A DNA stretch of 64,000 nt from the NCBI RefSeq assembly GCF_014712225.1, contig NZ_JACXBW010000012.1, positions 62,001 through 126,000 of the forward strand, written 5' to 3'. The notes beneath the pieces are model-generated. The model did no database searches. It was not told the DNA's origin and saw only the letters and a list, made by a program, of their open reading frames with translations. The position numbers and the translations under genes were made by a program. Positions 3,256-48,661 of this stretch are shown here, in pieces. Within the stretch, counting starts at the first letter, position 1. Each line of letters begins with the position of its first letter. This stretch comes from Pseudarthrobacter sulfonivorans. Its GTDB lineage: Bacteria > Actinomycetota > Actinomycetes > Actinomycetales > Micrococcaceae.

Positions 3256-4017
3256 TTGCTATTTGTCCAGCAGCTCTATGTGAAGGGGCGGCGCGACGAT
3301 CTGCTTCCGCCCACCTCCCTGCGCGCAAGCCGGGGCGAGCTGCTCCTGGTGGCGGCGGACCGGCAGGACCAGAGGACCGCCCTCGCCCTGACCATCAGCG
3401 GCCGCATGAAGCCCGGCGGCGGCCAGGTCTCGTGGGCCGGCAGTTCCCGCACCAAAACCCTTCGGCTCGCCAGCGCCCTGGTCGATTCCCCCGGCGTGAA
3501 CGAACCGGAGCAGCACCTCAGCGTGCGGGACCTGGTGACCGAGGACCTCGCCCTGGTCCCCCGGCGCTACCGCGGCGCGCTCCTCAGCAAACCCTGGCTG
3601 AAGGTCAACAGGTTTGAGGACATCGCGGATCTTTGGACCGAACAGCTTCCCGCCGGCAAACGGATGGACCTGCTGACGGCCTTGGCGCTGGCCAACCCGC
3701 ACACCGATCTCCTGGTGGTCGACTCCCCGGACAGGCACAGTGCCAGCGCCGCGGACTGGCTGCCGCGGCTTGAAGCGCTGGCGTACGACGGCGGCCGGCC
3801 ACTCGCCGTCGTCGCTACCGTCACTGCCCTCCCGGACTCGTGGACGGGACCGGCCGCCGTGATCGGCAACGCGGCCCAGCGGCCGGACGGAACCCCCGCC
3901 GCGCCGGAACCTGACCCGACCCCACCAGCCCTGACCCCACCAGCGCCGATCAACGAACCTGACCGGGCTGACGACGAAACAGAAGCCCTCCTACGCGAAA
4001 CCGAGGACGCCAAGTGA
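3256..4017 (+). CDS. Degenerate ABC-transporter ATPase-like protein encoded with YhgE/Pip
   Basis: The 253-residue protein has the overall layout of an ABC ATPase but broken nucleotide-binding motifs. Where GPNGAGKTTL is expected it reads AADRQDQRTALAL with no Lys-Thr/Ser P-loop, and the Walker B region is DLLVVDSPD rather than LLLDEPT. It ends in an acidic Pro-rich tail (residues about 205-253). It overlaps the YhgE/Pip gene by four bases (GTGA), so the two are translationally coupled, and it may act as a non-hydrolysing partner or adaptor. TTG at 3256 was chosen because GAAAGG (3244-3249) precedes it by six bases and the upstream GTG at 3226 lies before the predicted transcription start; the longer form would add ten residues. 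Confidence 0.72.
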   Translation: MLFVQQLYVKGRRDDLLPPTSLRASRGELLLVAADRQDQRTALALTISGRMKPGGGQVSWAGSSRTKTLRLASALVDSPGVNEPEQHLSVRDLVTEDLALVPRRYRGALLSKPWLKVNRFEDIADLWTEQLPAGKRMDLLTALALANPHTDLLVVDSPDRHSASAADWLPRLEALAYDGGRPLAVVATVTALPDSWTGPAAVIGNAAQRPDGTPAAPEPDPTPPALTPPAPINEPDRADDETEALLRETEDAK

Positions 4018-6050
4018 CCGTGCTGCGGCTGGCCCGTTCCGAACTCAAGCGGATGACCGGCGGGTTACTGCCGAAGCTGACCATCCTTGCCCTGATCATG
4101 GTGCCGCTCCTGTACGGCGCCGTGTACCTGTACGCCAACTGGAACCCCTACGGGAACCTGAACCAGATCGACGCAGCCCTGGTGGTGGAGGACTCCGGAG
4201 CCACATCGGGGGACGGCACCGAACTCCACGCCGGCACTGAGGTGGCGGACGGGCTGATCGATGGCCATGTCTTCAACTGGAAGCCGGTCACCACCGCCGC
4301 AGAGGCCGACGCGGGTGTCAGCAGCGGCAAGTACGCGTTTGCGCTGAAGATCCCCAAGGACTTCTCCACCAACCTGGTCTCACCGGGCAGCTTCGATTCA
4401 GCCAGCCAGGCGATGCTGAACGTGACCACCAACGATGCCAACAACTACCTGCTGAGCACCATCGTGGACAAGCTGACCACCTCGGTCCACAGCACCGTTG
4501 CCAAGGAGGTGGGCGAAGAGACCGCAAACCAGCTCCTCACGGGCTTCGGCACCATCCATGCCCAGATGCTCAAGGCGGGAGACGGGGCCGGACAGCTGGC
4601 CGACGGCGTGGCCACCCTCCGCGACGGGGCCACCACACTGCACGCAGGCACCACTGAACTCCGCACCGGGGCCGCGGAGCTCTCCGCCGGACAACTGCAG
4701 CTGCGGGACGGCGCCAACCGGCTGACCGACGGCGCCGGACAGCTCAGCAGCGGCCTCACCCTGCTGAAGGACAAGACCGCCACACTCCCCACGGACACCC
4801 AGACCCTGGCCAACGGGGCCGCGAGCGTGGCTGCCGGGAACGCCCAGCTGAACACCAAGGTCCAGAACGTTGTCACCCAACTGGATGCCGCGGACCAGGG
4901 GCTCCGGGCACGGGTGATCGAATCGAACACCCGCCTCGTCGCCGCCGCAGTGATCACGCAGGAGCAGGCGAACAGCATTCTGGCCGATTTCGACTCCGCG
5001 GCAGCCTCCAGCCCGGTGGCCGCGGCGAAGACCACCATCCAGGCCGATGCCGCCCAGATCCAGCAACTGGCGGACGGTGCCACGGCCGTGAGTGTGGGTG
5101 CCGCCCAGCTCGCCTCGGCCACCCCTGCCTTGAAGGACGCCGTGACACAGGCCTCAGGCGGCGCCGACCAGCTCCACACTGGGGCAGCCACACTGGCCAC
5201 CGGCCAGCAGACCGCGCTCGACGGAGCCGGCCGCCTGGCGGAGGGGGCCCAGACGGTCGACGCCGGCGCGGGGCAGCTTGAGGCGGGTGCCGCTAAGGCC
5301 GCTGACGGGTCGCGGACGCTCGCCACCGAGATTGCCCGCGGTGCGGGCCAGGTGCCCAACCCCGACGATGCGCAGAAGAACAGCCTGTCGCAGGTGATCG
5401 CAGATCCTGTTGCAGTCAGCAACGTCTCCCAGGCCAAAGCGGGCTCCTACGGCGCGGGGCTGGCGCCCTTCTTCCTGACCCTCGCACTGTGGATCGGCAT
5501 CTTTATGCTGATCCAGGCCATGCGGCCCATCACCCAGCGGGCCCTGGCGTCGAACGCCCCCGCCTGGAAAATCGCCGTCGGCGGCTGGCTTCCGTTCTTG
5601 GCCGTCTCAGCAGTCCAGGCCACCCTCCTGACCCTGGTGGTGAACCTGGCACTGGGACTGAACCCTGCGCATCCGGTCCTGATGTGGCTGTTCATGCTGG
5701 CCGCGGCGATGGCCTTCAGCGCCATCATCCAGGGCGTGGTGGCTTTGCTGGGGTCGCCCGGCAAGCTGGTTGTGCTGATCCTGCTGGTGCTGCAGCTCGT
5801 ATCCTCGGGCGGAACGTTTCCCTGGCAGACCACCCCGCAGCCGCTGCACGTGGTGCACGAGGTCCTCCCCATGGGCTACGTGGTCACCGGCATGCGGCAC
5901 CTCATCTATGGCGCGGACTTGTCCATGATTGTGCCCACCGTCCTGGGGCTGGTCGGCTACACGCTCCTGGGCGCCGCGATGTCCACGTTCGCCGTCCGGA
6001 AGCACAAATACTGGACGCTCAAAACCCTTAAGCCCGAGATTGCCGTATGA
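4014..6050 (+). CDS. YhgE/Pip-family membrane protein
   Basis: The 678-residue protein has the YhgE/Pip architecture. One N-terminal membrane helix (about residues 20-42) is followed by YLYANWNPYGNLNQIDAALV, typical of the family. A long extracytoplasmic region (about 50-470) is full of helical heptad-like repeats of the type LADGVATLRDGATTLHAGTTEL, and about five or six membrane helices follow (about 480-665). The family includes phage infection protein of Lactococcus and resembles ABC-2 and MmpL-like exporters; its substrate is unknown. It starts at GTG within the stop of the pseudo-ABC gene and overlaps the TetR gene at ATGA. Expression is probably set by the palindromic operator at 3196-3215. 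Confidence 0.9.
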   Translation: MTVLRLARSELKRMTGGLLPKLTILALIMVPLLYGAVYLYANWNPYGNLNQIDAALVVEDSGATSGDGTELHAGTEVADGLIDGHVFNWKPVTTAAEADAGVSSGKYAFALKIPKDFSTNLVSPGSFDSASQAMLNVTTNDANNYLLSTIVDKLTTSVHSTVAKEVGEETANQLLTGFGTIHAQMLKAGDGAGQLADGVATLRDGATTLHAGTTELRTGAAELSAGQLQLRDGANRLTDGAGQLSSGLTLLKDKTATLPTDTQTLANGAASVAAGNAQLNTKVQNVVTQLDAADQGLRARVIESNTRLVAAAVITQEQANSILADFDSAAASSPVAAAKTTIQADAAQIQQLADGATAVSVGAAQLASATPALKDAVTQASGGADQLHTGAATLATGQQTALDGAGRLAEGAQTVDAGAGQLEAGAAKAADGSRTLATEIARGAGQVPNPDDAQKNSLSQVIADPVAVSNVSQAKAGSYGAGLAPFFLTLALWIGIFMLIQAMRPITQRALASNAPAWKIAVGGWLPFLAVSAVQATLLTLVVNLALGLNPAHPVLMWLFMLAAAMAFSAIIQGVVALLGSPGKLVVLILLVLQLVSSGGTFPWQTTPQPLHVVHEVLPMGYVVTGMRHLIYGADLSMIVPTVLGLVGYTLLGAAMSTFAVRKHKYWTLKTLKPEIAV

Positions 6051-30050: not shown

Positions 30051-31535
30051 ATGACGTCCCTCTGGCTGGACCGCGAAAAGACCTTCAGTTCCGACCATTT
30101 CCAGGCCGGCACAAAGTACGACACCGTAGTCGCCGGCGCCGGGCTGACCGGCCTGGTCACGGCGTTGTTGCTTGCCCGGTCCGGGCAGCGGGTCCTGGTC
30201 TTGGAAGCCCGGTACCCAGGTGCCGTGACAACGGGGAACACCACGGCCAAGGTCAGCCTGCTGCAGGGCACAGTTTTGGGCTCGTTGTCCCGGCAGTATT
30301 CGGACAAGCAGGTCCAGGCGTACGTCGAGGCGAACCGTGAGGGGCAGGCGTGGCTGCTGCGCTACCTCGACGAGAACGCCTTGCCATACCAGCGCCGGGA
30401 CGCCTACACCTATGCCACCACCGGCGACGGGGCCGAGCGCCTCCGCGAGGAACTGATCGCGGCCACCACGGCGGGACTCAACGTGGAGTACGTGCTCGAC
30501 GCCGGCCTTCCCTTCCCCATCCAGGGCGCCCTGATGCTGGCAGACCAGGCCCAGATCAATCCCATGGACGTTTTGGACGCCCTGCTGTTGGACGTCCGCG
30601 CCCGCGGCGTCACCGTGGCGGGCGGGGTGCGGCTGCAGGATGTCACCGGGCGGGGCCCTGTGACGGTTCAAACGGATCAGGGCAACGTCACGGCTGACCA
30701 CGTAGTTCTGGCCACCGGAACCCCGGTACTGGACCGGGGCCTCTACTTCGCGAAACTGAAGCCGCTCCGCTCCTACGCCGCAGCGCTTGAGCTGCCGCAG
30801 GGGCTGACACCGCCGCCGGGAATGTACCTCTCCGCCGAAGAGCCCACGCATTCCCTGCGCGACTATGAAGCGGACGGCCGCAGGCTCCTGCTGGTGGGCG
30901 GGCACGGGCATCACGTGGGGCGGACGCCGTCGGAAAAGTCCCACCTTTCGGACCTGCTCGACTGGGCCGGCACGCAGTTCCCCGGCGCCTCGGCCACCCA
31001 CACGTGGTCGGCCCAGGACTACCAGGCCACCAATCTGATGCCGTTCTTTGGCAAGCTGCCGCGGGGGCGGGGAAGGATCCTTTTCGGCACCGGCTACAAC
31101 AAGTGGGGCATGACCAACGCCGTGGCCGTTGCCCTTGGCATCTCCGCCGACATCCTGGGCGGAAAGCTCCCATGGGCGGATACCATCCATCACCGCATCA
31201 CATCGCCCGCCGGCGCTGCCCACGCCGTAACCCTTAATGCCAAGGTGGCTGCCAACCTCGCCACCGGCTGGGTGAAGCTCGCCTCTGACGCTGCGCCACC
31301 GCCCGACGGCGCGGGAAAGGTGTACCGGGACGGTGCCCGTCCGGTGGCGGTCTCCACCGTCGGGGGAACCACGTGCAGGCTCTCCGCCGTCTGCACCCAC
31401 CTAGGTGGAATTGTGCACTGGAACGACAGCGAACAGACGTGGGACTGCCCGCTCCACGGCTCCCGCTTCAGCAACGACGGGCAGCTCCTCGAAGGCCCTG
31501 CCACCAAGAATCTTCCGCCGGCAGGGAAGGGTTGA
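30051..31535 (+). CDS. FAD-dependent oxidoreductase with C-terminal Rieske [2Fe-2S] domain
   Basis: 494 residues. A DAO-type FAD domain has the dinucleotide motif TVVAGAGLTGLVTALLLA, the ARYPGAVTTGNTTAKVS substrate/FAD region and a final GTGYNKWGMTNAV stretch. A Rieske cluster domain follows at about 410-494 with Cys-Thr-His (SAVCTHLGG) and Cys-Pro-Leu-His (DCPLHGSRF). The architecture is that of glycine-oxidase-like proteins fused to Rieske ferredoxin, widespread in soil bacteria; substrate unknown. No ribosome site is visible before 30051. Confidence 0.9.
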   Translation: MTSLWLDREKTFSSDHFQAGTKYDTVVAGAGLTGLVTALLLARSGQRVLVLEARYPGAVTTGNTTAKVSLLQGTVLGSLSRQYSDKQVQAYVEANREGQAWLLRYLDENALPYQRRDAYTYATTGDGAERLREELIAATTAGLNVEYVLDAGLPFPIQGALMLADQAQINPMDVLDALLLDVRARGVTVAGGVRLQDVTGRGPVTVQTDQGNVTADHVVLATGTPVLDRGLYFAKLKPLRSYAAALELPQGLTPPPGMYLSAEEPTHSLRDYEADGRRLLLVGGHGHHVGRTPSEKSHLSDLLDWAGTQFPGASATHTWSAQDYQATNLMPFFGKLPRGRGRILFGTGYNKWGMTNAVAVALGISADILGGKLPWADTIHHRITSPAGAAHAVTLNAKVAANLATGWVKLASDAAPPPDGAGKVYRDGARPVAVSTVGGTTCRLSAVCTHLGGIVHWNDSEQTWDCPLHGSRFSNDGQLLEGPATKNLPPAGKG

Positions 31536-31591
31536 TTCGTCCAAAGGGAGGGCCCGGCAATCCTGTCGGTGGGGTAGGGCATGATGGAGGA

Positions 31592-34500
31592 ATGCAGGAG
31601 CAGCAACCGCCGGTAGCGGGCCCGGATGCCCTTACCGGCACTCCCATGGGCCGGTTCAGCCGGCCCACCCGGGACTGGTTCCTCGGCGCCTTTTCGGAGC
31701 CAACGCCTGCCCAGGACGGCGCCTGGAACGCCATCTCGTCAGGCTCGCATGCCCTGGTGGTGGCGCCCACCGGCTCCGGAAAGACCCTCGCCGCGTTTCT
31801 GTGGGCCCTGGACCGGCTGCTGGTTTCGGCTCCTGCCCTTGAACTGCCCGGCCTGGACGTGGCGCCGGCCAAGGGCCGCCGGCCGCGGCCGCCCAAACGC
31901 AAGACGCGTGTCCTGTACATCTCACCGCTGAAGGCCCTCGGGGTGGACGTGGAGCGGAACCTGCGCGCACCGCTGATCGGCATCACCCAGACGGCCAAGC
32001 GGCTGGGACTGCCTGCCCCGCTCATCACGGTGGGGGTCAGGTCCGGTGACACCACCGCGGCGGACCGCCGATCGCTGCTCAGCAACCCGCCGGACATCCT
32101 GATCACCACGCCGGAATCGCTGTTCCTCATGCTCACGTCGAAGGCAAGGGAAACCCTCACCGAGGTGGACACCATCATCGTTGACGAGGTCCACGCCGTC
32201 GCGGGCACCAAGCGGGGAGCCCACTTGGCGGTTTCGCTGGAACGGCTCGACGCCCTCCTGCCCAAGCCCGCCCAGCGGATTGGCCTGTCTGCAACGGTGG
32301 AGCCGCGGGAGCTCGTGGCCCAGTTCCTGGCGGGCTCCGCTCGGGTGGAAGTGGTGGCGCCTCCTTCGCGGAAGACCTGGGACCTGACCGTTTCCGTGCC
32401 TGTGGAGGACATGTCCGACCTTCAGGGTGCCGCGGGGGCCTTCGACTCCGGGCCGGCTTCGGGGCTGCAGCCGCAGGCGTCGATCTGGCCGCATGTGGAG
32501 GAAAAAATCGTTGACTTGGTGCTGCCCAACCAGTCCACCATCGTGTTCGCCAACTCGCGCCGCCTTGCTGAGCGGCTCACTGCCCGGCTCAACGAGATTT
32601 ACGCCGAACGTCAGCTCGTGGCAGCCGGTGGTGGCTGGGGAGAGTTTGATTCGCCGGAGTCTTTCGGTGGTGCCGGGCGGGTGCCCGGTGGTGTATCGGC
32701 GCCTGGTGGCATCCCGGTTTCCAGCGGACTTCCGGTCTCCACAGCCACGCCCGCCCACATGATGGCGCAGGCCGGCAGCACCGCGGGAGCCGATCCCTTG
32801 CTGGCCCGCGCCCACCACGGGTCAGTTTCCAAGGACCAGCGGGCACTCATCGAGGACGACCTGAAGTCCGGCCGGCTGCGCTGCGTTGTGGCCACCTCGT
32901 CCCTGGAACTGGGCATCGACATGGGCGCTGTGGACCTGGTGGTGCAGGTGGAGTCCCCGCCGTCGGTGGCCAGCGGCCTGCAGCGCGTGGGCCGGGCAGG
33001 CCACCAGGTCGGCGAAATCTCCCAAGGTGTGCTCTTTCCCAAGCACCGTGCGGACCTGGTCCACACCGCCATCACGGTGGAGCGGATGCTCGAGGGGAAG
33101 ATCGAGCGACTGTTTGTCCCCGCCAATCCCTTGGACATCCTGGCGCAGCAGACCGTTGCCGCCACCGCCCTGGGCAGCATCGACGTGGAGGAATGGTTCG
33201 CCACGGTCCGGCGGTCAGCGCCCTTCGCTTCCCTCCCCCGTTCTGCGTTCGAGGCAACCCTTGACCTGCTGGCGGGGCGCTATGCCTCGGACGAGTTCGC
33301 CGAACTGCGGCCACGGATCATCTGGGACCGCAACGCGGGCACCATCGAGGGCCGCCCGGGCGCCCAACGGCTGGCCGTCACCTCCGGCGGGACCATTCCG
33401 GACCGGGGGCTCTTCGGCGTCTACATCATCGGCACCGAGGTTGAGGGCTCAGCGTCGCCTTCCGGTGACGGCAAGACGTCCACCCCCTCGCCGGCCAAGG
33501 GCGGACGCCGCGTGGGCGAACTGGACGAAGAGATGGTCTACGAGTCCCGGGTGGGCGACATTTTTGCCCTCGGCGCCACGAGCTGGAAGATCGAGGACAT
33601 CACCCACGACCGCGTCCTGGTCTCCCCTGCCTTCGGCCAGCCCGGCAAGCTGCCGTTCTGGAAAGGTGACTCGCTGGGCAGGCCGGTGGACCTGGGCCGC
33701 GCCCTGGGGGCGTTCGTCCGCGAACTATCAGCGTCCGACGTCGGCCCTGCCACCGAGCGCTGTACGGCCGCTGGACTCGACGCCTTTGCCGCGAACAACC
33801 TGATCCAGTATCTGAGCGAGCAGAAGCTTGCCACCGACGTTGTCCCGAGCGACACCACCCTGGTGGTGGAACGGTTCCACGATGAACTGGGCGACTGGCG
33901 GGTCATCCTCCACAGCCCGTTCGGCATGCCCGTGCACGCGCCGTGGGCACTCGCCGTCGGGCAGCGGCTCCAGCAGCGGTACGGCCTGGACGGCTCCGCG
34001 ATGGCCGCTGACGACGGCATCGTGCTGCGTGTTCCCATGATGGAGGACGAACCGCCCGGGGCTGAGCTGTTCCTCTTCGATCCCGAGGAATTGGAGCAGA
34101 TTGTCACCGCAGAGGTGGGCGGCAGCGCCCTGTTTGCCTCCAGGTTCCGGGAATGCGCCGCGCGTGCACTGCTGCTGCCCCGCCAGACGCCGGGAAAACG
34201 GCAGCCGCTGTGGCAGCAGCGCCAGCGGTCGGCGCAGCTGCTCGATGTGGCGCGGAAATATCCCACGTTCCCCATCGTGCTGGAGACTGTTCGCGAGTGC
34301 CTTCAGGACGTTTACGACCTCCCGGCGCTGAAGGACATCGCCGCCTCGGTGGAACGCCGCGAGCTGAGGATCGTCGAGACCACCACCCAGCAGCCGTCGC
34401 CGTTCGCCAAGTCCCTGCTGTTCGGGTACGTGGCGCAGTTCCTGTACGAGGGCGACTCGCCGCTGGCCGAACGCCGCGCGGCGGCCCTGGCACTGGACTC

Positions 34501-36658
34501 GACGCTCCTGAACGAACTGCTGGGGCGCGTGGAACTCCGCGAACTGCTCGACGCGAAGGTCATCGACGCCACCGAGCTCGAACTCCAGCGGCTTGCGCCG
34601 GACCGCCGTGCCCGCGGCCTGGAAGGCGTAGCGGACCTGCTCCGGCTGCTCGGCCCGCTGACACCCGAGGAAGTCGCTGCCCGGCTGGACCCGGCAGTTG
34701 AACCGACCGCACCCGCGGTGGTTGAACCAGCCCCGGAGGTTGAGCCTGTCGAAACCCCGCATGCTGATACCGCCCTTGCCGCCACCCACCTGGCGGCACT
34801 GCAACGGGCCGCACGCGCCATCAAGGTCAACATCGGCGGGGCTGAGCGGTTTGCCGCCGTCGAGGACGCAGCCCGCCTGCGCGATGCCATCGGCGTGCCA
34901 CTGCCCATGGGCGTCCCGCTCGCCTTCATCGAACCCGTAGCCGACCCCCTCGGCGATCTCGTCTCCCGGTATGCCCGCACGCACGGACCGTTCACGGCGA
35001 TGGAAGCTGCCGCACGGCTAGGCCTCGGGGTGGCCGTAGTTGGCACGGCGCTGAAGCGGCTCGCCGCCGACGGCCGTGTGGTGGAAGGCGAGTTCCGGCC
35101 GCACGCTGCGCCGCCGGAAAGCCCGGCCTCGGGGCCGGAGGAAAAACCGCAGCCGCTCCCCCAGGAACAACATCAGGAACCGCAGCAGTCGGCCACCACC
35201 AGCGAGTGGTGCGACGCCGAAGTCCTCCGGAAGCTCCGGCGTCGTTCGCTGGCAGCACTGCGCGCCGAAGTGGAACCGGTGGATGCCGCCGCCTATGGCC
35301 GTTTCCTCCCCGCCTGGCAGAATGTCCGAACCCCGGGCGCCGGCGGCGGGCAGCCGTCCCTGCGCGGGCTGGACGGAATTGTCACGGCGATCGACCAGCT
35401 GTCCGGGGTTCCAGTTCCCGCTTCGGCGTGGGAGCCGCTGGTGCTGGCGAGCCGGGTTTCGAACTACCAGCCCGCCATGCTGGACGAGCTCATGGCCGCC
35501 GGAGAGGTCCTGTGGTCCGGGGCCGGCGCACTTCCCGGCAATGACGGCTGGGTGAGCATGCATCTGGCCGATTCCGCAGACCTGACGCTGAACCCGGCCG
35601 TCGAATACGAGCCAGGGGACGCGCAGCAGCGTTTGCTCGACCACCTTCGAAACAACGGCGGCGGCTATTTCTTCCGCCAGCTGACGGACGTCGCAGGCGG
35701 CATGGACGCCGTCCTGAGCGACCAGGACGTGGTTTCGGCATTATGGGATCTGGCCTGGGCCGGCCGCATCACCGGCGACACTTTTGCGCCGGTCCGCGCC
35801 CTCATTGCCGGTGGCCATACCGCCCACCGGCAGGTGGCGCGCGCACCCCGGGCACGTGCACCGCGGATGAGCAGGCTTGGCCGTTCCCACGGCACCGGCC
35901 TCTTGGGGTCCTCGGGGGTGGGTTCGCCCGGACTCAGCGGCGGGCGGTACGGCTCCTCGGGCGGAGTGGCGGCCACTCCGCCGCTGGCTGCCGGACGATG
36001 GTCGGCACTGCCTTCGCCTGAACTGGACGCCACCATCCATGCCCGTGCGACGGCGGAATTGCTGCTGGACCGTTACGGCGTGGTGACACGGGGATCGGTG
36101 ATGGCGGAGCAGATCCTGGGCGGGTTTGGCCTGATGTACAAAGTGCTGGCCAGGCTGGAGGAGGCCGGCCGCTGCCGGCGCGGGTACTTCATCGAGCATC
36201 TCGGTGCCGCCCAGTTCGCCGTGCCGGCGACCGTGGACCGGCTGCGCTCCTATTCCGAGGACAGCCAGCTGGCGAAACCGGAACCGGTTGCCCTGGCACT
36301 GGCGGCCACCGACCCCGCCAACCCGTACGGTGCAGCCCTGGCTTGGCCGGCTCTCAACGAGGAAGCCGGCACCGGCCACCGGCCGGGACGGAAAGCCGGG
36401 GCCCTGGTAGTGCTCGTGGACGGCGCCCTCATCCTGTACGTGGAGCGTGGCGGCAAGACCTTGCTGGCCTTCAGCGATGACGAAGCCATCCTCGCAGCGG
36501 CCGGCACCGCGCTGGTGGGAGTGGTCACCCGCGGCGCCGTGGACAAGCTGATCATGGAAAAAGTCAACGGCCACGACATCCTGGACACCGCCGTCGCCAA
36601 GGCGCTCGCGGCCGCCGGCGCCTACTCCACTCCCAAAGGACTGAGGATCCGTGCCTGA
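31592..36658 (+). CDS. lhr: Lhr-family ATP-dependent DNA helicase
   Basis: 1688 residues, a superfamily 2 helicase for 3'-5' unwinding of DNA or RNA:DNA hybrids in repair. Motifs are Walker A VVAPTGSGKT, Walker B DEVH in IIVDEVHAVAGTKRGAHL, SAT in GLSATVEP, motif V VVATSSLELGIDMG and motif VI QRVGRAGHQVG. The long C-terminal half, with RLPVHAPWALAVG-like and winged-helix parts, is typical of full-length bacterial Lhr. Low-complexity insertions occur at about 345-360 and 420-455. ATG 31592 was chosen, though GGAGG is only one base away; the open frame continues to 31373 through the end of the preceding gene. The 3' end is duplicated (see 36642-36702). Confidence 0.95.
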   Translation: MQEQQPPVAGPDALTGTPMGRFSRPTRDWFLGAFSEPTPAQDGAWNAISSGSHALVVAPTGSGKTLAAFLWALDRLLVSAPALELPGLDVAPAKGRRPRPPKRKTRVLYISPLKALGVDVERNLRAPLIGITQTAKRLGLPAPLITVGVRSGDTTAADRRSLLSNPPDILITTPESLFLMLTSKARETLTEVDTIIVDEVHAVAGTKRGAHLAVSLERLDALLPKPAQRIGLSATVEPRELVAQFLAGSARVEVVAPPSRKTWDLTVSVPVEDMSDLQGAAGAFDSGPASGLQPQASIWPHVEEKIVDLVLPNQSTIVFANSRRLAERLTARLNEIYAERQLVAAGGGWGEFDSPESFGGAGRVPGGVSAPGGIPVSSGLPVSTATPAHMMAQAGSTAGADPLLARAHHGSVSKDQRALIEDDLKSGRLRCVVATSSLELGIDMGAVDLVVQVESPPSVASGLQRVGRAGHQVGEISQGVLFPKHRADLVHTAITVERMLEGKIERLFVPANPLDILAQQTVAATALGSIDVEEWFATVRRSAPFASLPRSAFEATLDLLAGRYASDEFAELRPRIIWDRNAGTIEGRPGAQRLAVTSGGTIPDRGLFGVYIIGTEVEGSASPSGDGKTSTPSPAKGGRRVGELDEEMVYESRVGDIFALGATSWKIEDITHDRVLVSPAFGQPGKLPFWKGDSLGRPVDLGRALGAFVRELSASDVGPATERCTAAGLDAFAANNLIQYLSEQKLATDVVPSDTTLVVERFHDELGDWRVILHSPFGMPVHAPWALAVGQRLQQRYGLDGSAMAADDGIVLRVPMMEDEPPGAELFLFDPEELEQIVTAEVGGSALFASRFRECAARALLLPRQTPGKRQPLWQQRQRSAQLLDVARKYPTFPIVLETVRECLQDVYDLPALKDIAASVERRELRIVETTTQQPSPFAKSLLFGYVAQFLYEGDSPLAERRAAALALDSTLLNELLGRVELRELLDAKVIDATELELQRLAPDRRARGLEGVADLLRLLGPLTPEEVAARLDPAVEPTAPAVVEPAPEVEPVETPHADTALAATHLAALQRAARAIKVNIGGAERFAAVEDAARLRDAIGVPLPMGVPLAFIEPVADPLGDLVSRYARTHGPFTAMEAAARLGLGVAVVGTALKRLAADGRVVEGEFRPHAAPPESPASGPEEKPQPLPQEQHQEPQQSATTSEWCDAEVLRKLRRRSLAALRAEVEPVDAAAYGRFLPAWQNVRTPGAGGGQPSLRGLDGIVTAIDQLSGVPVPASAWEPLVLASRVSNYQPAMLDELMAAGEVLWSGAGALPGNDGWVSMHLADSADLTLNPAVEYEPGDAQQRLLDHLRNNGGGYFFRQLTDVAGGMDAVLSDQDVVSALWDLAWAGRITGDTFAPVRALIAGGHTAHRQVARAPRARAPRMSRLGRSHGTGLLGSSGVGSPGLSGGRYGSSGGVAATPPLAAGRWSALPSPELDATIHARATAELLLDRYGVVTRGSVMAEQILGGFGLMYKVLARLEEAGRCRRGYFIEHLGAAQFAVPATVDRLRSYSEDSQLAKPEPVALALAATDPANPYGAALAWPALNEEAGTGHRPGRKAGALVVLVDGALILYVERGGKTLLAFSDDEAILAAAGTALVGVVTRGAVDKLIMEKVNGHDILDTAVAKALAAAGAYSTPKGLRIRA

Positions 36659-40076: not shown

Positions 40077-40769
40077 CTAGACGTAGACCTTTTCCAGGAA
40101 CCCGTCCCAGGCCTTGGCCGTGGCTTCCGGATCGCCGCTGCCGCTGAAGTCGTGGACCGTCATGCCCACCGGAGCGCCGAAGGCGTTGCGGCCAAAGAAC
40201 CGGTACATCGCGTCCGCGGTCCGCAGTCCCAGGAAGTGCTCGTTGACGAAGTCCACTTCCCCGGACAGCCGCCCGACGCCGTCGACCTCCATCTCCACCG
40301 CTGAACCCTGCGCGGCAGAGTCCACGCCGAGGGCTTTCTTCAGCCGGTCGAATCCGTCCGGCGCCTGCGAGGCCGCGGGTCCCTGGATGTCCGTAAACAC
40401 CACCGGCTGCCCGTCGAAGTGCGCCAGGTACTGGCCGAGCGTGTGGAGGTAGAACTCGGTGTGTCGGCGCGCACCGTCGTACTGCTCATCCCAGTTGTCG
40501 GCGAAGATCCCACTGTGGACGTAGTGGAGCTTGGCGCGGCCGCCGTCGAGCGGTTCAAGGACGTGCTCCAGCTGGTTGAACCAGCCGTCAGGGCCGTCCA
40601 TTCGGGAGACCAGATGCGTGGGGTACTCCTGGACCGTTTTGACGTCCGGCCACTGGTCAGTGGGAAACATCCAGGCCGGGGTACCTTTGGTCACGGCCTC
40701 CCAGACGCGCTCGGGAGTGCCCGGCAGTTCGGCGTCGTAGACGATCTCAAATTCGCGGTTATCAGTCAT
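40077..40769 (-). CDS. SRPBCC (AHSA1/START-like) domain protein
   Basis: 230 residues with the Aha1/AHSA1-type SRPBCC fold: IVYDAELPGTPERVWEAVTKG at the start, FNQLEHVLEPLDGGRAKLHYV and HTEFYLHTLGQYLAHFDG. The fold binds hydrophobic ligands; no enzyme residues can be assigned. A gene for such a protein next to an ArsR regulator is a frequent pairing. It overlaps the ArsR gene by eight bases, so the two are co-transcribed from the promoter at 41404-41433. Confidence 0.88.
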   Translation of the reverse strand: MTDNREFEIVYDAELPGTPERVWEAVTKGTPAWMFPTDQWPDVKTVQEYPTHLVSRMDGPDGWFNQLEHVLEPLDGGRAKLHYVHSGIFADNWDEQYDGARRHTEFYLHTLGQYLAHFDGQPVVFTDIQGPAASQAPDGFDRLKKALGVDSAAQGSAVEMEVDGVGRLSGEVDFVNEHFLGLRTADAMYRFFGRNAFGAPVGMTVHDFSGSGDPEATAKAWDGFLEKVYV

Positions 40770-43089: not shown

Positions 43090-45618
43090 TCAGAGGCCCT
43101 GCATCACCGCAGCCGAGGCACGGAGCCAGGCCTCCCGCGTTTCCGGCTGCAGCGCCTGGTAACTGAGCGGTCCGCCGGCCACAAGGGAGCTGTCATAGGG
43201 AACGTCGAGGACTTCCCTGGTGAGGCTCTCGAAGTGAGCCCGGGTCCGCCGATGCAACTGCACATCCGTCTGCAGCGACGGTGCGGCGAGCAGGGTCACG
43301 GCGTTGCTGACCTTGTCCTGGTAGCCGCGTTCGCGCAATCCGTCCACCAGCCAGACGGCACTGGCCACGGTGTCTTCGCGCAGCGTGGAGACGATCACCA
43401 GCTCGTCCGCCGCAGCCACAGCCGCTTCCCAGTTGGAGGACCGCATGTTGTTGCCGGTGTCCACCATGATGATCCGGTAGAAACGGCGGAGCGCCGAGTG
43501 CAGCCGGTCGAACTCACGGCTTCCGATGGTGGCAGCACCGGCGGCGTCCTCGTCCGAGGCCAGCACATCGAACTGCGCGGAGCCCTGGTAGCGGACGAAC
43601 CGGTCCAGGTCCCCGATCCGGCCCAGGACCGGGTCCTCGAAGCGGTCCACCTCCTGCAGGAGGTCAACGGCCGTGGCGGTGTGCCCGGCCATCGGTGCCC
43701 GCCACCCCAGCGTGCCGCGCGTCTCGTTGTTGTCCCAGGCGAGGGTGTAGCCGCCGCGCTGGATGCCCAGCGTTGCCGCCAGGAGCAGCGTTGCGGTGGT
43801 CTTATGCGCACCGCCCTTGGGGTTGACCACAACCACGGTCCGGGGGCCATCAAGCCGGCGCTGGACATCTTCGACAGCCTGCAAGTGGGCGCGTTCCCGG
43901 CGCCCGGGTGCGGGGCTGATTGAATTGCCGGTGAGCCGCCGGATGGCACCCTGCCAGCCGGTCACGGCCAGGGCTGACGGTGGCGTCGGCCGGTCGGCGA
44001 GGAAATCCTGCAGGGTGGGGACGTCGTCGCCCGTTTGGGGCCAGGGCACGGATCCCGGCAGGCCCCCGGGCACAGACCCGGAAGCTGCAGCGGCGGCCGA
44101 AGCCTCGAAATGCGACGGCGAGCGCAGCGGAGCCGGGGGGACGCTGTTGTCGGGCATGGCCGCGGGGTTGACGGGCATGGCCGCGGGGTTGACTGCAATA
44201 GCCATGGCGGACCTTCCTTTCTGTAGTGGCTTCCCCATCTGTGGTGGCTTCCCTGCCCCGGGCTGCACCGCCCGGAGGTGCCGTGGCACCACGGCCTCAG
44301 GCTCCGCCGTCGAACGCAACAGGCGCCTGCCGAGGCGCCGGAAGAGGGCGAGCAGGCCGGACAGCAGCCGGTACAGCAGGATGGCCAGGCCGACTATCGG
44401 CAAGGACAACATGAGGATGGACAACATGGAGAGCGCCGCAGCGGGCGGATCGCCCGTCTCAACGGCGGCGGCAGCAAGCCCCGCGTGACGCCGGATGGCG
44501 GTGGCCGTTTGCTCGATGATCGCGGGCAGGTTGACCAGCATCCAGCCGAGCGAAAAAACCAGGACCGGCACTACGGTGACAACCCACACCGTGACGATGC
44601 GGCGGGCGAACGGGCGGAGCTGGGTGACGAGCGGATCCACGGGGCGGCCCGGGATGAGGCTGAGCAGGACCGGGCGGATCCGGTTGAACAGGTCGGGGAC
44701 GCCGGCAATATCGGCCAGCACGAAGTAGCCGTCGAAACGCAGCGTCGGCACCAGTTGCTGGATCATCTGGAAATGCATCAGACCGGCCGCGAGCAGGAAG
44801 AATCCCTGTTCGGTCAGGAGGTACGCTCCGCCCAAACCGATCAGGCAGAGGCAGTTGAAGTACAGCCCGCCAAGGTCGGTGCGGATCCGGCCTGCCCGGC
44901 CCAGGCGGTATGAGTCAGTGACGTTGGTGAAGAACGCGGGAAAGACAAGATATACGCCGACGCCGATCACCCCGGGCCGCGCACCACCGTACCGGCACGC
45001 TGTGGCATGCCCCAGTTCGTGAACCACGGCCGCCAGCGTCAGGAGCGCAAAGATGCCCAGCAGCAGCGCCGGGGTGAGCAGTATCTGCTCCAGTGACGCC
45101 ATAAAATCGCTCCTGGCAATCACCAGGACATCGACAACCACCAGCGCCGCCAGGACGGTCACCACAACGGGACCCCAATAGAGCGGCGCCAGGACCGAGG
45201 CCAAGGCATTGACCGCCTTCTCCGGAAGAAGCGTGCCTTTCAGCCGCAGTGCCAGCAGCGGGTCGGCCCGTGGCGCGGCCGCAGCCTCGGCCGGATCGGC
45301 GGCGTTGTCCCTCACCAGCCCCATCGGCGCGAGTCTGGTGTCGATCAGGTGGAGCAGCCCGCTCACACCCAGCTCGCGGCCGTAGGCATCGCTGATGTCG
45401 CGTGCCGCGTCGTCAAGGGATTTCTCCGCCGAGATGGAAAGCATCACCAGGTGGAGCAGCTCCGAGAGTTGGACAATCTGCCCGTCACCACGCTGCAGCA
45501 GGAAGCTGTGGTCCTTAAGTCCCGAGCCTTCAACCGGCCCGAGAAAAATAATCCCGGGCGCCGGGACCCAGCGACTTAGAAACGCAGCATCAGGTGTTGC
45601 TGTCACTTTCCCCGCCAA
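43090..45618 (-). CDS. Fusion of PqqD-like domain, M50 membrane metalloprotease and MinD/ParA-type ATPase
   Basis: 842 residues. Residues about 12-103 resemble a PqqD/RRE-type peptide-recognition domain (GIIFLGPVEG, VQLSELLHLV, LIDTRLAPMGLV). Residues about 145-430 hold seven or so membrane helices, the zinc motif His200-Glu-Leu-Gly-His204 and Asp296 in LRFDGY, an M50 site-2-protease core. After a Pro/Gly/Met linker, 580-842 form a MinD/ParA-like ATPase with deviant Walker A PKGGAHKTT (Lys601, Lys606), DNNETRGTLGWRA and VDTGNNMRSSNW, like ATPases tied to type VII-like secretion. An internal ATG (44205, residue 472) has its own ribosome site AAAGGAAGG six bases upstream, so a separate 371-residue ATPase may also be made. 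TTG 45618 is the outermost start; GTG 45606 is possible. Follows two peptide genes. Confidence 0.85.
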   Translation of the reverse strand: MAGKVTATPDAAFLSRWVPAPGIIFLGPVEGSGLKDHSFLLQRGDGQIVQLSELLHLVMLSISAEKSLDDAARDISDAYGRELGVSGLLHLIDTRLAPMGLVRDNAADPAEAAAAPRADPLLALRLKGTLLPEKAVNALASVLAPLYWGPVVVTVLAALVVVDVLVIARSDFMASLEQILLTPALLLGIFALLTLAAVVHELGHATACRYGGARPGVIGVGVYLVFPAFFTNVTDSYRLGRAGRIRTDLGGLYFNCLCLIGLGGAYLLTEQGFFLLAAGLMHFQMIQQLVPTLRFDGYFVLADIAGVPDLFNRIRPVLLSLIPGRPVDPLVTQLRPFARRIVTVWVVTVVPVLVFSLGWMLVNLPAIIEQTATAIRRHAGLAAAAVETGDPPAAALSMLSILMLSLPIVGLAILLYRLLSGLLALFRRLGRRLLRSTAEPEAVVPRHLRAVQPGAGKPPQMGKPLQKGRSAMAIAVNPAAMPVNPAAMPDNSVPPAPLRSPSHFEASAAAAASGSVPGGLPGSVPWPQTGDDVPTLQDFLADRPTPPSALAVTGWQGAIRRLTGNSISPAPGRRERAHLQAVEDVQRRLDGPRTVVVVNPKGGAHKTTATLLLAATLGIQRGGYTLAWDNNETRGTLGWRAPMAGHTATAVDLLQEVDRFEDPVLGRIGDLDRFVRYQGSAQFDVLASDEDAAGAATIGSREFDRLHSALRRFYRIIMVDTGNNMRSSNWEAAVAAADELVIVSTLREDTVASAVWLVDGLRERGYQDKVSNAVTLLAAPSLQTDVQLHRRTRAHFESLTREVLDVPYDSSLVAGGPLSYQALQPETREAWLRASAAVMQGL

Positions 45619-45658
45619 CTTGTCATGTTCCCCACAAAGGGCTTAGCCACTAGGAACA

Positions 45659-45690
45659 GCGGGCATGCCCCGACAGTGGAGCATGCCCGC
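45659..45690 (-). terminator. Intercistronic hairpin between peptide genes and protease-ATPase gene
   Basis: GCGGGCATGC (45659-45668) and GCATGCCCGC (45681-45690) form a perfect 10-bp stem with a 12-base loop, 24 bases past the second peptide stop. It could be a partial terminator or mRNA-stabilising element that keeps peptide expression above protease expression. Confidence 0.7.
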
Positions 45691-45713
45691 CAGGTTGCAA
45701 AGATCCTGCAGAA

Positions 45714-45914
45714 CTACTGTTGAGCTACGAACAGGGTCTGCCAGGCCTCCGAGTTCGCCACGGAACCGATTGAAGCCGCATTGACGGCCATCGAAAGATT
45801 CACAGCGACTATGGGAGCGACGTTGATGTCGAAGAACAGCGTTTCCCGAACGGGAAGAAGTTCCAAAACCTCGGCGTCGAGTTCCACCGGTGACAGCTCG
45901 TTTGATGCCGTCAT
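45714..45914 (-). CDS. Precursor-like small peptide B (66 residues)
   Basis: The peptide is paralogous to the one at 45985-46176, sharing about 30 of 55 aligned residues. Residues 1-28 are acidic and leader-like with ELLPVRETLFFD. From about residue 30 it is uncharged apart from one Glu, rich in Ala, Asn, Ser, Val (AVNLSMAVNAAS, GSVANSEAWQT) and ends FVAQQ. Small polar residues recur at every second position. There is no cysteine, signal peptide or helix-breaking membrane segment. The ATG is preceded by GAGAGGTGTG. Read as a RiPP-like or exported peptide precursor; family unknown. Confidence 0.75.
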   Translation of the reverse strand: MTASNELSPVELDAEVLELLPVRETLFFDINVAPIVAVNLSMAVNAASIGSVANSEAWQTLFVAQQ

Positions 45915-45984
45915 AGCACCACACCTCTCTCCCCCAGGCAGCCCCGGGGTTCAGATATCGGGATATCAGGCGGACTAACCCTGG

Positions 45985-46176
45985 CTACTGGGCTACAAGG
46001 ATCGTCTGAACCGCAGCGCTGTTAGCCGATGCGAGCAGTGAGCCGGCGTTCAGTGCGAGCGAGGTGTTCGTCGCGTACACGCTTGCCCAGTTGGTATCCA
46101 GCAACAAGGTTTCCCGCGACGGCAACAGCTCCACCTGCTCGCTTTCCAGCTCCTGAATGGTGAGTTCCTTCTTCAT
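45985..46176 (-). CDS. Precursor-like small peptide A (63 residues)
   Basis: First gene of the minus-strand operon. It opens MKKELTIQELESEQVELLPS and carries the conserved RETLLLD, then an uncharged segment ATNTSLALNAGSLLAS, ANSAAVQT and the end ILVAQ. ATG 46176 was chosen because AAAGGGGGTGA, one of the strongest ribosome sites in the window, lies eight bases upstream; GTG 46185 would add three residues inside that site. Conservation with peptide B covers both halves, including LLPxRETL, NxSxAxNAxS and ANSxAxQT, which argues for a shared recognition and maturation route, presumably by the downstream protease-ATPase. Confidence 0.77.
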   Translation of the reverse strand: MKKELTIQELESEQVELLPSRETLLLDTNWASVYATNTSLALNAGSLLASANSAAVQTILVAQ

Positions 46177-46232
46177 ATCAATCACCCCCTTTCGAAGTCT
46201 CCCGACCAGTCAACGCGCCCGGCCGTAGTAAC

Positions 46233-46272
46233 CCCGTTACAGCCGCGTCATTTTTGTGTTATTTCTGCGTTA
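46233..46272. promoter_or_regulatory. Four heptamers at 11-bp spacing, candidate SARP operator
   Basis: CCCGTTA (46233), CGCGTCA (46244), TGTGTTA (46255) and TGCGTTA (46266) start exactly 11 bp apart; the last three extend to 10 matching positions (YGYGTYATTT). Tandem heptamers in 11-bp register are the binding layout of SARP activators, and a SARP gene lies at 46824. The array is between the divergent peptide operon and the small gene at 46402. Confidence 0.6.
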
Positions 46273-46304
46273 TTTGGTGAAAATAGGGCGTGCCAGCATT
46301 TGAC

Positions 46305-46333
46305 TTGGGCGCCACATAATCTATGCCTAGGAT
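46305..46333 (+). promoter_or_regulatory. Possible promoter of the small gene and SARP gene
   Basis: TTGGGC (46305-46310), 17-bp spacer and TAGGAT (46328-46333). Downstream of the heptamer array and pointing toward the gene at 46402. Confidence 0.35.
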
Positions 46334-46401
46334 GGTCATACCGGGCAGTAATGTCCCTGGACAATTGCGAATTGCAGACGACGAAAGCAGGGCGCCCGCT
46401 C

Positions 46402-46623
46402 ATGGCGGACATTGAAGGCACCATGGTTATCCGCGCGTGGGCGGAGCCTGCCCAAAACAACCAGCTTCGGGCCCGTTTGATCTCCAGCCGCCCTGGGCAT
46501 GAGCGGGAGGTTGTGGAATCCGCGGCCGACGCCGAACAAATCCTCCTGGCAGTCCGGCGCTGGCTCGATTCGCTGCGTCCGGAAGACCACTCCGCCGGCG
46601 CGCCGGACCCCGTCAGCCGCTAG
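46402..46623 (+). CDS. Hypothetical 73-residue protein
   Basis: Not recognised. It begins MADIEGTMVIRAWAEPAQNN and has a strand-rich first half (VIRAWAE, LRARLISS) followed by a helix (ADAEQILLAVRRWLDSLRP), a compact alpha/beta pattern without membrane segment. An in-frame ATG at 46351 would add 17 poorly coding residues; neither start has a clear ribosome site. It is divergent from the peptide operon and in front of the SARP gene, so it is tentatively part of the same locus. Confidence 0.6.
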   Translation: MADIEGTMVIRAWAEPAQNNQLRARLISSRPGHEREVVESAADAEQILLAVRRWLDSLRPEDHSAGAPDPVSR

Positions 46624-46823
46624 GCACCGTCACAGCAGCGGGGTCTTGGCCCGCGCACCCATGTTGGCCAGCAGGCCGACGCGATCCCGGGCAGCCAAGC
46701 CCGCCCTACCCCACTTGGCCGTCCGCCCTACCCCCGTTACTAAAATCGCTTGACATGATTAAGCCAAGTGCCACGATGGTAGCTGGGGGACGAGTGGAAT
46801 CCGGCCGCTTGAGAGGGAAAAGC

Positions 46824-47543
46824 ATGACGGTGGCTCTCGCACAGGATTGGCACTTGAGCCTACTGGGGGCTTGGCGGTTGCGTTGCGGCGGCGACGCAGT
46901 GACGGTAGCTACCCGTGAGCAACGGCTGCTCGCCTGTGTGGGACTTCTCGGGTGCCGCCACCGCAGTTTCCTGGCCGGCCTGCTGTGGCCGAAGAGCAGC
47001 GAAACGCAGGCCGCTGGCAACCTCCGCACCACCGTCTGGTGCATTTCCCACTCTTTTCCGGACCTTCTCCATACCGGGGCAGACACACTGGAGTTGGAGG
47101 AATCGGTCCGTGTGGACGTCTCAGCACTGCAGCGGCACGTTGCCAGGATGCACGCCCAGCCCGGGGTCCAGGTTCCCGACGGCTACCTGGACCACCTGAG
47201 CAGGGCCGAGCTGCTGCCCGGCTGGTATGACGACTGGGTGATCTTCGAACAGGAGCGCCTGCGGCAATTGCGCCTCAGCGCGCTGGAGCTCATGGCCCGG
47301 CAGCATCTGGCGGCCGACGAACCCGCCCGGGCCGTGATCGCGGCCATTTCAGCAGTGAGCATCGAACCCCTCAGGGAATCGGCGCATCTCCTGCTTGTCC
47401 AGGCCCATCTTGCGGCCGGGAATAGGGCGGCTGCAGTCCGTGCGTACACGATGTTCGCGAGCAGACTTGATAGCGAACTCGGCGTTATGCCATCAGGCCA
47501 GTTGAGTGATCTCGTAGCGGCGTTCCGTCCGGCCTTGCACTGA
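46824..47543 (+). CDS. SARP-type regulator (AfsR/DnrI-like winged helix and BTAD)
   Basis: 239 residues. An OmpR-like winged helix (about residues 10-95) is followed by a bacterial transcriptional activation domain (about 100-239) with the typical YLDHLSRAELLPGWYDDWVI, EQERLRQLRLSALELMA and helical repeats to RLDSELGVMPS. SARPs activate secondary-metabolite and peptide clusters. ATG 46824 is preceded by AGAGGGA. The open frame extends to ATG 46755, but that ATG overlaps a TTGACA box (46750-46755) and has no ribosome site. Proposed activator of the adjacent peptide operon. Confidence 0.85.
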   Translation: MTVALAQDWHLSLLGAWRLRCGGDAVTVATREQRLLACVGLLGCRHRSFLAGLLWPKSSETQAAGNLRTTVWCISHSFPDLLHTGADTLELEESVRVDVSALQRHVARMHAQPGVQVPDGYLDHLSRAELLPGWYDDWVIFEQERLRQLRLSALELMARQHLAADEPARAVIAAISAVSIEPLRESAHLLLVQAHLAAGNRAAAVRAYTMFASRLDSELGVMPSGQLSDLVAAFRPALH

Positions 47544-48200: not shown

Positions 48201-48506
48201 TTACACGGGTGCCCAGCGGCCGCGGTTGCGGCGCAGCACCATCAGTGAGCCGGTCAGCGCAACGCGTTCGACGGCGTCGCGCATCATGGCTGCCGATGCG
48301 CGCGCCTGCTGGTTCTCACCGTTGTATTCGGTGGGCTCCACGAGGAAGCGGAGGTTCAGTTGCGGGACGCCGCCAGCGAGCTCCAGCTGGTTGGCCTCCA
48401 CATGGTGACGGGTCTCCAGGGCCTCCACGGCGGCGGCCATCACGGCTTCGGGCGCATTGCCGGGCTTCAGGCCGGTGATCTTCAGGCGGGTCTGGAACGA
48501 AGGCAT
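48201..48506 (-). CDS. Hypothetical 101-residue protein
   Basis: Not recognised. A soluble alpha/beta pattern starting MPSFQTRLKITGLKPGNAPE, with a helix (AVMAAAVEALETRHHVEANQ), a strand LNLRFLVEP and a final basic segment VLRRNRGRWAPV. ATG 48506 follows AAGG by nine bases; the open frame extends upstream only through low-complexity GC-rich sequence. It lies downstream of ppc on the same strand but is separated by the hairpin element at 48561-48661. Confidence 0.68.
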   Translation of the reverse strand: MPSFQTRLKITGLKPGNAPEAVMAAAVEALETRHHVEANQLELAGGVPQLNLRFLVEPTEYNGENQQARASAAMMRDAVERVALTGSLMVLRRNRGRWAPV

Positions 48507-48560
48507 GCCGTCAACCTTACCCACCCCGCGCCTGCCCCTGCCCCTCCCCCTCCCCGCCAG

Positions 48561-48661
48561 ACGCTCTCTCACTTAATGCAGGAAAACCCCGATCGCTCTC
48601 TCACTTTCCTTAGGAAAGTGAGAGAGCGTTTGGGAAAAACCCGCATTAAGTGAGAGAGCGT
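48561..48661. repeat. Double nested hairpin built from a repeated CGCTCTCTCACTT arm
   Basis: The outer arms ACGCTCTCTCACTTAATGC (48561-48579) and GCATTAAGTGAGAGAGCGT (48643-48661) are perfect complements over 19 bp. The inner arms CGCTCTCTCACTTTCC (48594-48609) and GGAAAGTGAGAGAGCG (48613-48628) are perfect over 16 bp. All four arms share the 13-mer CGCTCTCTCACTT or its complement, so alternative pairings exist. It lies just past the 3' end of ppc. Confidence 0.9.

Follow-up and report, generated by a model that had tools for sequence, protein, structure and literature searches.

A 64,000-nucleotide stretch of the Pseudarthrobacter sulfonivorans genome (contig NZ_JACXBW010000012.1, positions 62,001 to 126,000; hereafter the window) contains, at 43090-47543, a locus encoding two short peptides, a large fusion protein and a divergent regulator. 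The locus looks like an undescribed peptide-maturation system. We judged it probable that it is a leader-guided maturation module, in which a site-2 protease directed by a recognition element (RRE) for ribosomally synthesized and post-translationally modified peptides (RiPPs) cleaves the two precursors, as MpaP does in daptides but with another leader. By computation, we observed genes under constraint, an RRE-like domain, protease motifs, pairing of peptide and protease, conserved leaders with variable cores, and a Streptomyces antibiotic regulatory protein (SARP) only at ATPase-fused proteases. A widespread peptide-protease pairing would thereby be added to the RRE-guided site-2 proteolysis known from daptides. 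The features of the locus are as follows.

45985-46176, minus strand: peptide 1, precursor-like, 63 amino acids (aa); aligned with relatives from other families, and omega (nonsynonymous to synonymous rate ratio) determined
45714-45914, minus strand: peptide 2, precursor-like, 66 aa, paralogue of peptide 1; aligned, omega determined
45659-45690, minus strand: stem-loop of 13 bp between peptide 2 and the protease gene
43090-45618, minus strand: fusion of RRE, site-2 protease and MinD/ParA ATPase, 842 aa from TTG
45310-45570, minus strand: predicted PqqD/RRE domain of the fusion, residues ~17-103, from hhalign, the AF2 model and VIA rows
44290-45190, minus strand: site-2 protease (M50-like) region of the fusion, with HELGH at residue 200 and RFDGY at residue 294
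43090-44040, minus strand: MinD/ParA-type ATPase domain of the fusion, with KGGAHKTT, preceded by a Pro/Ala-rich linker
46402-46623, plus strand: conserved open reading frame (ORF) of 73 aa between the SARP gene and the peptides, in 9/9 loci, omega determined, no family match
46755-47543, plus strand: divergent SARP-type regulator with a BTAD domain (Pfam PF03704)

Peptide 1 stands behind AAGGGGGTGATTGAT; its leader, ..ELESEQVELLPSRETL, is followed by NWASVYATNTSLALNAGSLLASANSAAVQTILVAQ. Both peptides combine an acidic leader containing ELLPxRETL with a core of Asn, Ser, Ala and Gln and a C-terminal Gln. The leader residues LPxRExL were invariant in an alignment of 14 diverse peptides. The original prediction, made from the letters of the window, had described two paralogous peptides with an acidic LLPxRETL leader and an Asn/Ser/Ala-rich half, and this description was borne out by 52% identity in the alignment and by the omega values. 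Compared with seven orthologous loci, omega was 0.15-0.40 for peptide 1, 0.12-0.45 for peptide 2, 0.06-0.13 for the ATPase part, 0.11-0.17 for the SARP and 0.12-0.33 for the 73-aa ORF, indicating purifying selection on all genes compared, with the ATPase part among the most strongly constrained. Chance ORFs were ruled out, as omega was <0.5 in every comparison. Matches to PAP_fibrillin, PRK06031 and Mei5 were at chance level.

The original prediction had also placed the peptides in front of a protein joining a PqqD-like domain, a protease and an ATPase. We found this arrangement, with HELGH at residue 200, RFDGY at 294, KGGAHKTT at 601 and, in a simple scan, six hydrophobic segments. A GTG at 45606 (838 aa) is as good a start as the TTG, because V(T/A)TAP at that position is common to the orthologues. 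HExGH and R(F/Y)DGY were invariant across 16 aligned proteins, and the fusion carries an HExxH motif and a distal DG motif within hydrophobic segments, the mark of a site-2 protease. Among models of known proteases, the daptide protease model NF041824 scored 88 bits (cut-off 300) and the LiaK model NF058609 52.7 bits (cut-off 225). Neither the peptides nor the protease half is covered by an NCBIfam or Pfam model scoring above cut-off. The gathering score of Pfam M50 was not reached by any of the 16 members, the best E-value being 0.13, and a search of PDB sequences with the RRE-protease profile gave a best E-value of 0.25.

The PqqD/RRE-like nature of the N-terminal domain is supported by profile-profile comparison and by the structural rows obtained with its predicted model. 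A profile of 38 N-terminal domains was aligned by hhalign to one of 16 PqqD sequences (PF05402 matches; 4 of 20 were left out) with a probability of 82.1% and an E-value of 1e-5 over 62 columns (PqqD 4-67), whereas 20 column shuffles reached at most 2.4%. The AF2 model, built from 10 sequences, placed a bbb-aaa-b domain at the N-terminus, with predicted local distance difference test (pLDDT) values of ~64-85 by block. In the structure comparison with RRE domains that the original prediction had proposed, VIA-align ranked RiPP proteins in its top five rows, all on residues 9-108, namely TigE (Z 8.3), lasso synthetase B1 (7.9), MibB (7.8) and TbiB1 (7.6 and 7.4), and RiPP proteins filled 10 of the first 18 rows, among them PqqD (6.5), TbtB (6.3), a heterocyclase (6.2), TruD (6.2) and NisB (6.0). 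We take all nine of these proteins to contain RREs.

Daptides are the closest known system. According to PMC10036551, the leader is removed by MpaP, an intramembrane peptidase that depends on an RRE, and daptides have an ELExMEAP leader, a C-terminal Thr and the enzymes MpaB, MpaC, MpaD and MpaM. As with MpaP/DapP and MpaA, the locus in the window has an N-terminal RRE on a site-2 protease and several short, adjoining precursors with a conserved leader, and the RRE-protease regions were 27-35% identical over 130-317 residues. RRE-guided site-2 proteolysis is thus known in principle from daptides, and the fusion protease is, as judged by sequence, kin of MpaP. In contrast to daptides, including a daptide locus read for comparison (L165), the leader here is ELLPxRE, the C-terminal residue is Gln, and the protease carries an ATPase or Cys domain. 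No daptide model for mpaB, mpaC, mpaD or mpaM was matched among the 11 neighbours scanned (36.7-52.4 kb of the window, with Pfam and/or NCBIfam). Membership in the daptides was ruled out by the ELLPxRETL leader, the C-terminal Gln, the lack of daptide enzymes among these neighbours and the NF041824 score under cut-off. The YydH/LiaK metalloprotease of the epipeptides belongs to the same protease superfamily as the fusion, as seen with NF058609. Epipeptides (YydF/LiaF) need a radical SAM epimerase, and membership in this group was ruled out as none was found among the scanned neighbours. The claim that the locus fits no known RiPP class stood as far as class-defining features are concerned, but its protease is kin to that of the daptides.

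The earlier statement that no radical SAM enzyme, lanthipeptide synthetase or ABC exporter lies nearby holds for the 11 scanned neighbours, two of which (40077-40769 and 48201-48572) matched no model at all. No tailoring enzyme for the peptides was recognised among them, and the peptides are therefore expected to be unmodified or modified in trans, suggesting that such peptide-protease pairs exist without tailoring enzymes.

We examined how often the peptides and the protease occur together. With a peptide profile built from 14 sequences, which longer two-module precursors escape, peptides were found in 16 of 198 genomes of the genus, always immediately upstream of the fusion gene; the same 16 genomes have a fusion orthologue (at least 70% identity). 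One of the 16, G116, has its protease and ATPase parts in separate frames. In the class, the RRE-protease profile matched 48 of 296 genomes at E <= 1e-20, a count that includes one daptide-like protease (G214, locus L159) and perhaps a second (G473, E 1.9e-21); the peptide profile matched 23 of the 296, and 22 of these were among the 48. The original prediction would have failed had homologues of the peptides occurred mainly away from the protease; they co-occurred with it, with few exceptions. The one class genome with a peptide match that is not among the 48 is G382, where a partial match (E 0.0045), inside a 363-aa ORF read as TrpD, was taken as chance. In a sample of the phylum, the protease profile matched 23 of 296 genomes at E <= 1e-30, including 18 that do not belong to the class. 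Among 21 loci from beyond the class, 15 had short peptides with an LPxR(D/E) leader next to the protease; candidates had been found in 16, of which L240 was discounted, and those of L237 are on the opposite strand.

A leader-motif ORF was detected by pattern upstream of 44 of 49 protease loci, and upstream of the remaining five (L020, L025, L026, L119 and L123) on a second look, giving 49/49, compared with 11 of 249 control genes; 24 of the 49 loci come from the genus and are related, so that the counts are not independent. Duplicates, the f24 loci, L125, L132, L135-L138 and L163 were left out of this count because the patterns failed or the gene was incomplete; precursors were seen in L125, L135, L136, L137, L163 and f24, and none were seen in L132 and L138. 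These results indicate that the predicted peptide-protease pairing recurs across Actinobacteria.

The precursors took several forms: pairs of ~65-72 aa, triplets of ~70-95 aa with LPDRE(Q/A)MSL, and single two-module proteins of ~220-390 aa with LPxKEV, in which the core is repeated. In f24 (L153-L157, L161, L183-L187) and in L163 (G349), the ELLP(D/E)RxxL leader is kept and the cores are unrelated, reading NSPGSNN... or being His/Gly-rich with CQA...CIPASTVV. The LPx(R/K) leader is thus retained where the core changes fully, the conserved-leader, variable-core pattern of RiPP-type precursors, and f24 and L163 represent, to judge from their leaders, one leader system carrying other cargo. Because the leader is conserved and the cores vary, the system lends itself readily to testing and perhaps to redirection.

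Taken as a leader-guided module, the locus would work as follows. The two peptides would be the precursors, whose acidic leader would be bound through ELLPxRETL by the RRE/PqqD domain of the fusion. The attached site-2 protease would then remove the leader at or in the membrane, and the Asn/Ser/Ala/Gln core would be released outward. The most likely role of the cytoplasmic MinD/ParA ATPase of this sub-lineage would be to position or gate the protease at the membrane, and the divergent SARP would turn the unit on. These steps, from leader binding through cleavage to export, are inferred from the anatomy of the locus, the pairing and the daptide precedent, as is what the ATPase and the SARP do and what becomes of the core.

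Several results weigh against this interpretation. No membrane segment is obvious in the peptides, and the vicinity of the locus showed no export gene. Neither Pfam PqqD nor Pfam M50 matched the window protein at E <= 1; a single relative, P0011, gave weak matches to TIGR03859 (17.3 bits, cut-off 46, E 0.003) and PF05402 (E 0.015), both under cut-off. The protease and membrane part of the AF2 model was mostly of low confidence, Foldseek found nothing at E <= 0.001 with the fusion model, and VIA Z-scores of 6-8.3 are middling, with unrelated methyltransferases and helical proteins among the same rows. The genomes of the genus are related, and the co-occurrence does not represent 16 independent events. 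Solitary leader-motif peptides were also found, at L184/L201 (G296:C1:5247655) and L202 (G328:C1:2812766), with no protease-like ORF by pattern within 16 kb and 14 kb, respectively, a pattern that also misses the L163 and L200 proteases. G206 has the peptides on one contig and the protease at the end of another. The pairing is thus not absolute; the solitary precursors are perhaps served in trans.

The core pattern N1-x-S/A3-x-A5-x-N7-xx-S10-xx-S/A13-x-A15-x-S/A17-x-A19-x-Q21-xxx-V/I25-x-Q27 was derived from 40 non-redundant cores (of 62) over 33 columns, with positions 1, 3, 5, 7, 21 and 27 imposed by the search pattern. Among the free positions, S10 was conserved at 92% and V/I25 at 95%, and the unimposed S10, S/A13, A15, S/A17, A19 and V/I25 form an alternating pattern together with N1, N7, Q21 and Q27. 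This alternation suggests strands, whereas AF2 on 20 aligned peptides gave a helix at residues 29-62 of modest confidence (pLDDT ~69-79). Similar Asn/Ser/Ala/Gln alternation in a short repeat marks the R repeats of curli (CsgA/CsgB), which also offer an analogy for a possible secreted partner sharing the repeat. Curli are not known to have an RRE-protease.

Other proteases bear, in place of the ATPase, a Cys domain or a tail rich in Pro, Ser and Thr. Several proteases, among them the fusions of f33 and f15, have a separate Cys-domain protein encoded near them, whose N-terminus is often signal-like. In the Cys domain, the second repeat aligned with the core at an hhalign probability of 26.9% (E 7e-4, one against one; eight shuffles gave at most 1.3%). 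In a position-specific scoring matrix (PSSM), Cys domains had a mean score of -5.7, compared with -22.8 (standard deviation 5.9) for shuffled sequences; 52% of 25 Cys domains exceeded the 99th shuffle percentile, and 2 of 210 unrelated windows reached the mean. The resemblance of the Cys-domain repeat to the core is suggestive only. By hydropathy scan, the Cys-domain paralogue shows at 447-465, between the last segment common to both proteins and its C-terminal domain, a segment that is absent from the window protein; segment 216-234 of the window protein, in turn, falls below threshold in the paralogue. This is consistent with, and not proof of, the Cys domain lying outside and the ATPase inside.

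These observations bear on an unlikely alternative, in which the cores are self-assembling beta-arch subunits of a cell-surface structure with the secreted Cys-domain protein as partner or nucleator, a curli-like logic fed by the RRE-site-2 protease. The alternating core positions, the core-like repeat of the Cys-domain protein, secreted or fused, near many relatives and the repeated core of two-module precursors would fit such an assembly. However, AF2 predicted a helix and no strands, only 52% of the Cys domains passed the 99th shuffle percentile in the PSSM test and two unrelated windows matched their mean, curlin was not matched at E <= 1 by P0002, P0003, P0005, P0007, P0008 or P0012, no Cys-domain gene was seen at the locus in the window, and the core is wholly different in other families.

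A second, paralogous peptide-protease locus (L114, G000:C1), absent from the original prediction, as were the 73-aa ORF and the stem-loop, was found in the same genome. Its features are as follows.

L114:8273-8968: two-module precursor, 229-231 aa, with an ALPDKEVAS leader
L114:8975-11419: RRE-protease with a C-terminal Cys domain, 814 aa
L114:7261-8115: stand-alone Cys-domain protein

Peptides with an ELLPGREALG leader were also seen before the protease in L147, L148, L152 (f25 g30) and L166, the last on a plasmid of Streptomyces sp. NBC_00557; a Cys-domain protein with a signal-like N-terminus lies downstream in L148, L152 and L166. In NZ_CP107797.1, the L166 protease and peptide are annotated as 'hypothetical protein'.

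The ATPase domain of the window protein keeps both Lys residues of the deviant Walker A motif (KGGxGKT) in KGGAHKTT, with AH in place of xG. It scored 14.5-15.8 bits against Pfam, under the cut-off, whereas the f33 fusion P0009 (KGGVGKTT) passed PF01656. Among the loci read, ATPase-fused proteases occurred in the genus, in f33 (L129, L130) and in f15 (L128). Their RRE-protease halves were 55-59% identical to that of the window, compared with 41-44% for other forms, and they formed one clade of 14 rows (support 100/99) in a tree that has long branches and was used only for this grouping. L128 is not in the tree as its sequence has GSGI and the selection pattern wanted GSG followed by Y, L, F, T or M; L015 (G116) falls in the clade and was classed as 'tail' because of its split frames. 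The window ATPase was ~30% identical to its counterparts in the fusions of f33 and f15, whereas it was 63-65% identical to four free-standing actinobacterial ATPases. Since the ATPases are of two kinds and the protease halves are 55-59% identical, either one ATPase took the place of another or the fusion happened twice. Both possibilities suggest that the protease benefits from an ATPase of this kind.

Free-standing MinD/ParA-like ATPases with KGGAHKTT (L043-L113; read: L043, L060, L072 and L094) are present in many Micrococcales and in Kineosporia. They are conserved and have a small N-terminal domain and a Pro/Ala linker. They share the motif with the window domain, but their N-terminal part is different, and, unlike at the fusion, a pattern search showed a protease-like ORF at none of the 71 loci.

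The divergent SARP of the original prediction was confirmed by PF03704 (BTAD) at 55.2 bits (cut-off 22.1); for an N-terminal winged-helix DNA-binding domain there was no Pfam match, and a weak alignment with AfsR starts at residue 12 (17.7 bits). A SARP adjoins 12 of 12 ATPase-fused proteases, in three families, and none of 23 others, and the SARPs of the f33 and f15 loci were 38-42% identical to that of the window. Of these 23 SARP-free loci, 21 have a protease ORF without KGGxxK by pattern, and the remaining two are L200, a Cys-domain form (L126), and L163, which was left unclassed; the 23 include G214, daptide-like by sequence beside L165, and G473, which may be daptide-like. Judged by their distribution, neither the ATPase nor the SARP belongs to the system in general; they mark one sub-lineage. 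The joining of a MinD/ParA ATPase of two kinds to a leader protease, with a SARP in every such locus read, was unexpected and raises the question of why peptide maturation would need a positioning or gating ATPase.

The constant SARP may also speak for mature peptides that are secreted antimicrobial or signalling molecules under the control of the SARP, as in a small metabolite cluster, a possibility that we regard as doubtful. The co-encoded pair recalls two-component bacteriocins, and a kin protease is used in daptide clusters; however, the locus sits stably in the chromosome, flanked by DedA and macro-domain/RluA genes, no gene for immunity or transport was recognised at it, and the peptides are under purifying selection. 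It is very unlikely that the peptides are regulators, acting as anti-factors or adaptors whose cleavage signals to the SARP, with the protease-ATPase serving as a membrane signalling protein. Site-2 proteases are often signal-transducing, and the SARP and fusion genes are divergent neighbours, but most relatives have the peptide-protease pair with no SARP nearby (0/23), 1-3 peptides and variable cores. Leader-guided maturation can also be extended, with low expectation, to a hitherto undescribed class of secreted peptides that would span the phylum and lack tailoring enzymes. Their cores would have a repeat in common with a secreted Cys-domain partner and would form assemblies on the cell surface, and in one lineage a replaced or twice-fused MinD-type ATPase would position the leader protease, so that maturation would be spatially controlled.

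The closest named relatives for the locus were Arthrobacter and Pseudarthrobacter. The order DedA, SARP, small ORF, peptide 1, peptide 2, fusion, RluA was found in 9/9 orthologous loci (named records), with a macro-domain gene between the fusion and RluA in five of the nine. Recent mobility was ruled out, as the DedA and RluA neighbours are constant. The stem-loop between peptide 2 and the fusion gene was present in 10/10 loci; 97.7% of 130 cells were paired, compared with 33-50% in slid controls, with two compensatory cells, and 24 and 39 of 500 shuffles scored as high, so that covariation is modest. It possibly acts as an attenuator or mRNA stabiliser that gives a high peptide to protease ratio. 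The 73-aa ORF matched no model above cut-off, and its likeness to a 111-aa ORF of the f15 locus was not significant (E 0.036, 20 residues).

The terms 'M50' and 'site-2' are absent from the main text of the RRE-Finder paper (PMC7470986) and of a structure-based RRE paper (PMC12710340), the available part of which lists proteases in general among RRE neighbours; the available part of PMC12338566 treats other steps. No description of the pairing or of the leader strings was found among the literature matches listed, and the daptide survey of 2023 may hold the family in supplementary or unpublished groups.

Elsewhere in the window, an ABC-2 permease is encoded at 4014-6050, ~40 kb from the locus, and the pyridoxal phosphate (PLP) gene at 38353 encodes a MocR-like regulator (YczR model, above cut-off). 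In Arthrobacter sp. Hiyo4 (L042), frame changes, perhaps sequencing errors, split the phosphoenolpyruvate carboxylase gene, DedA and the end of the fusion gene. A 1761-aa Lhr-type helicase with DEAD and Lhr winged-helix domains is encoded at 31373-36658 on the plus strand.

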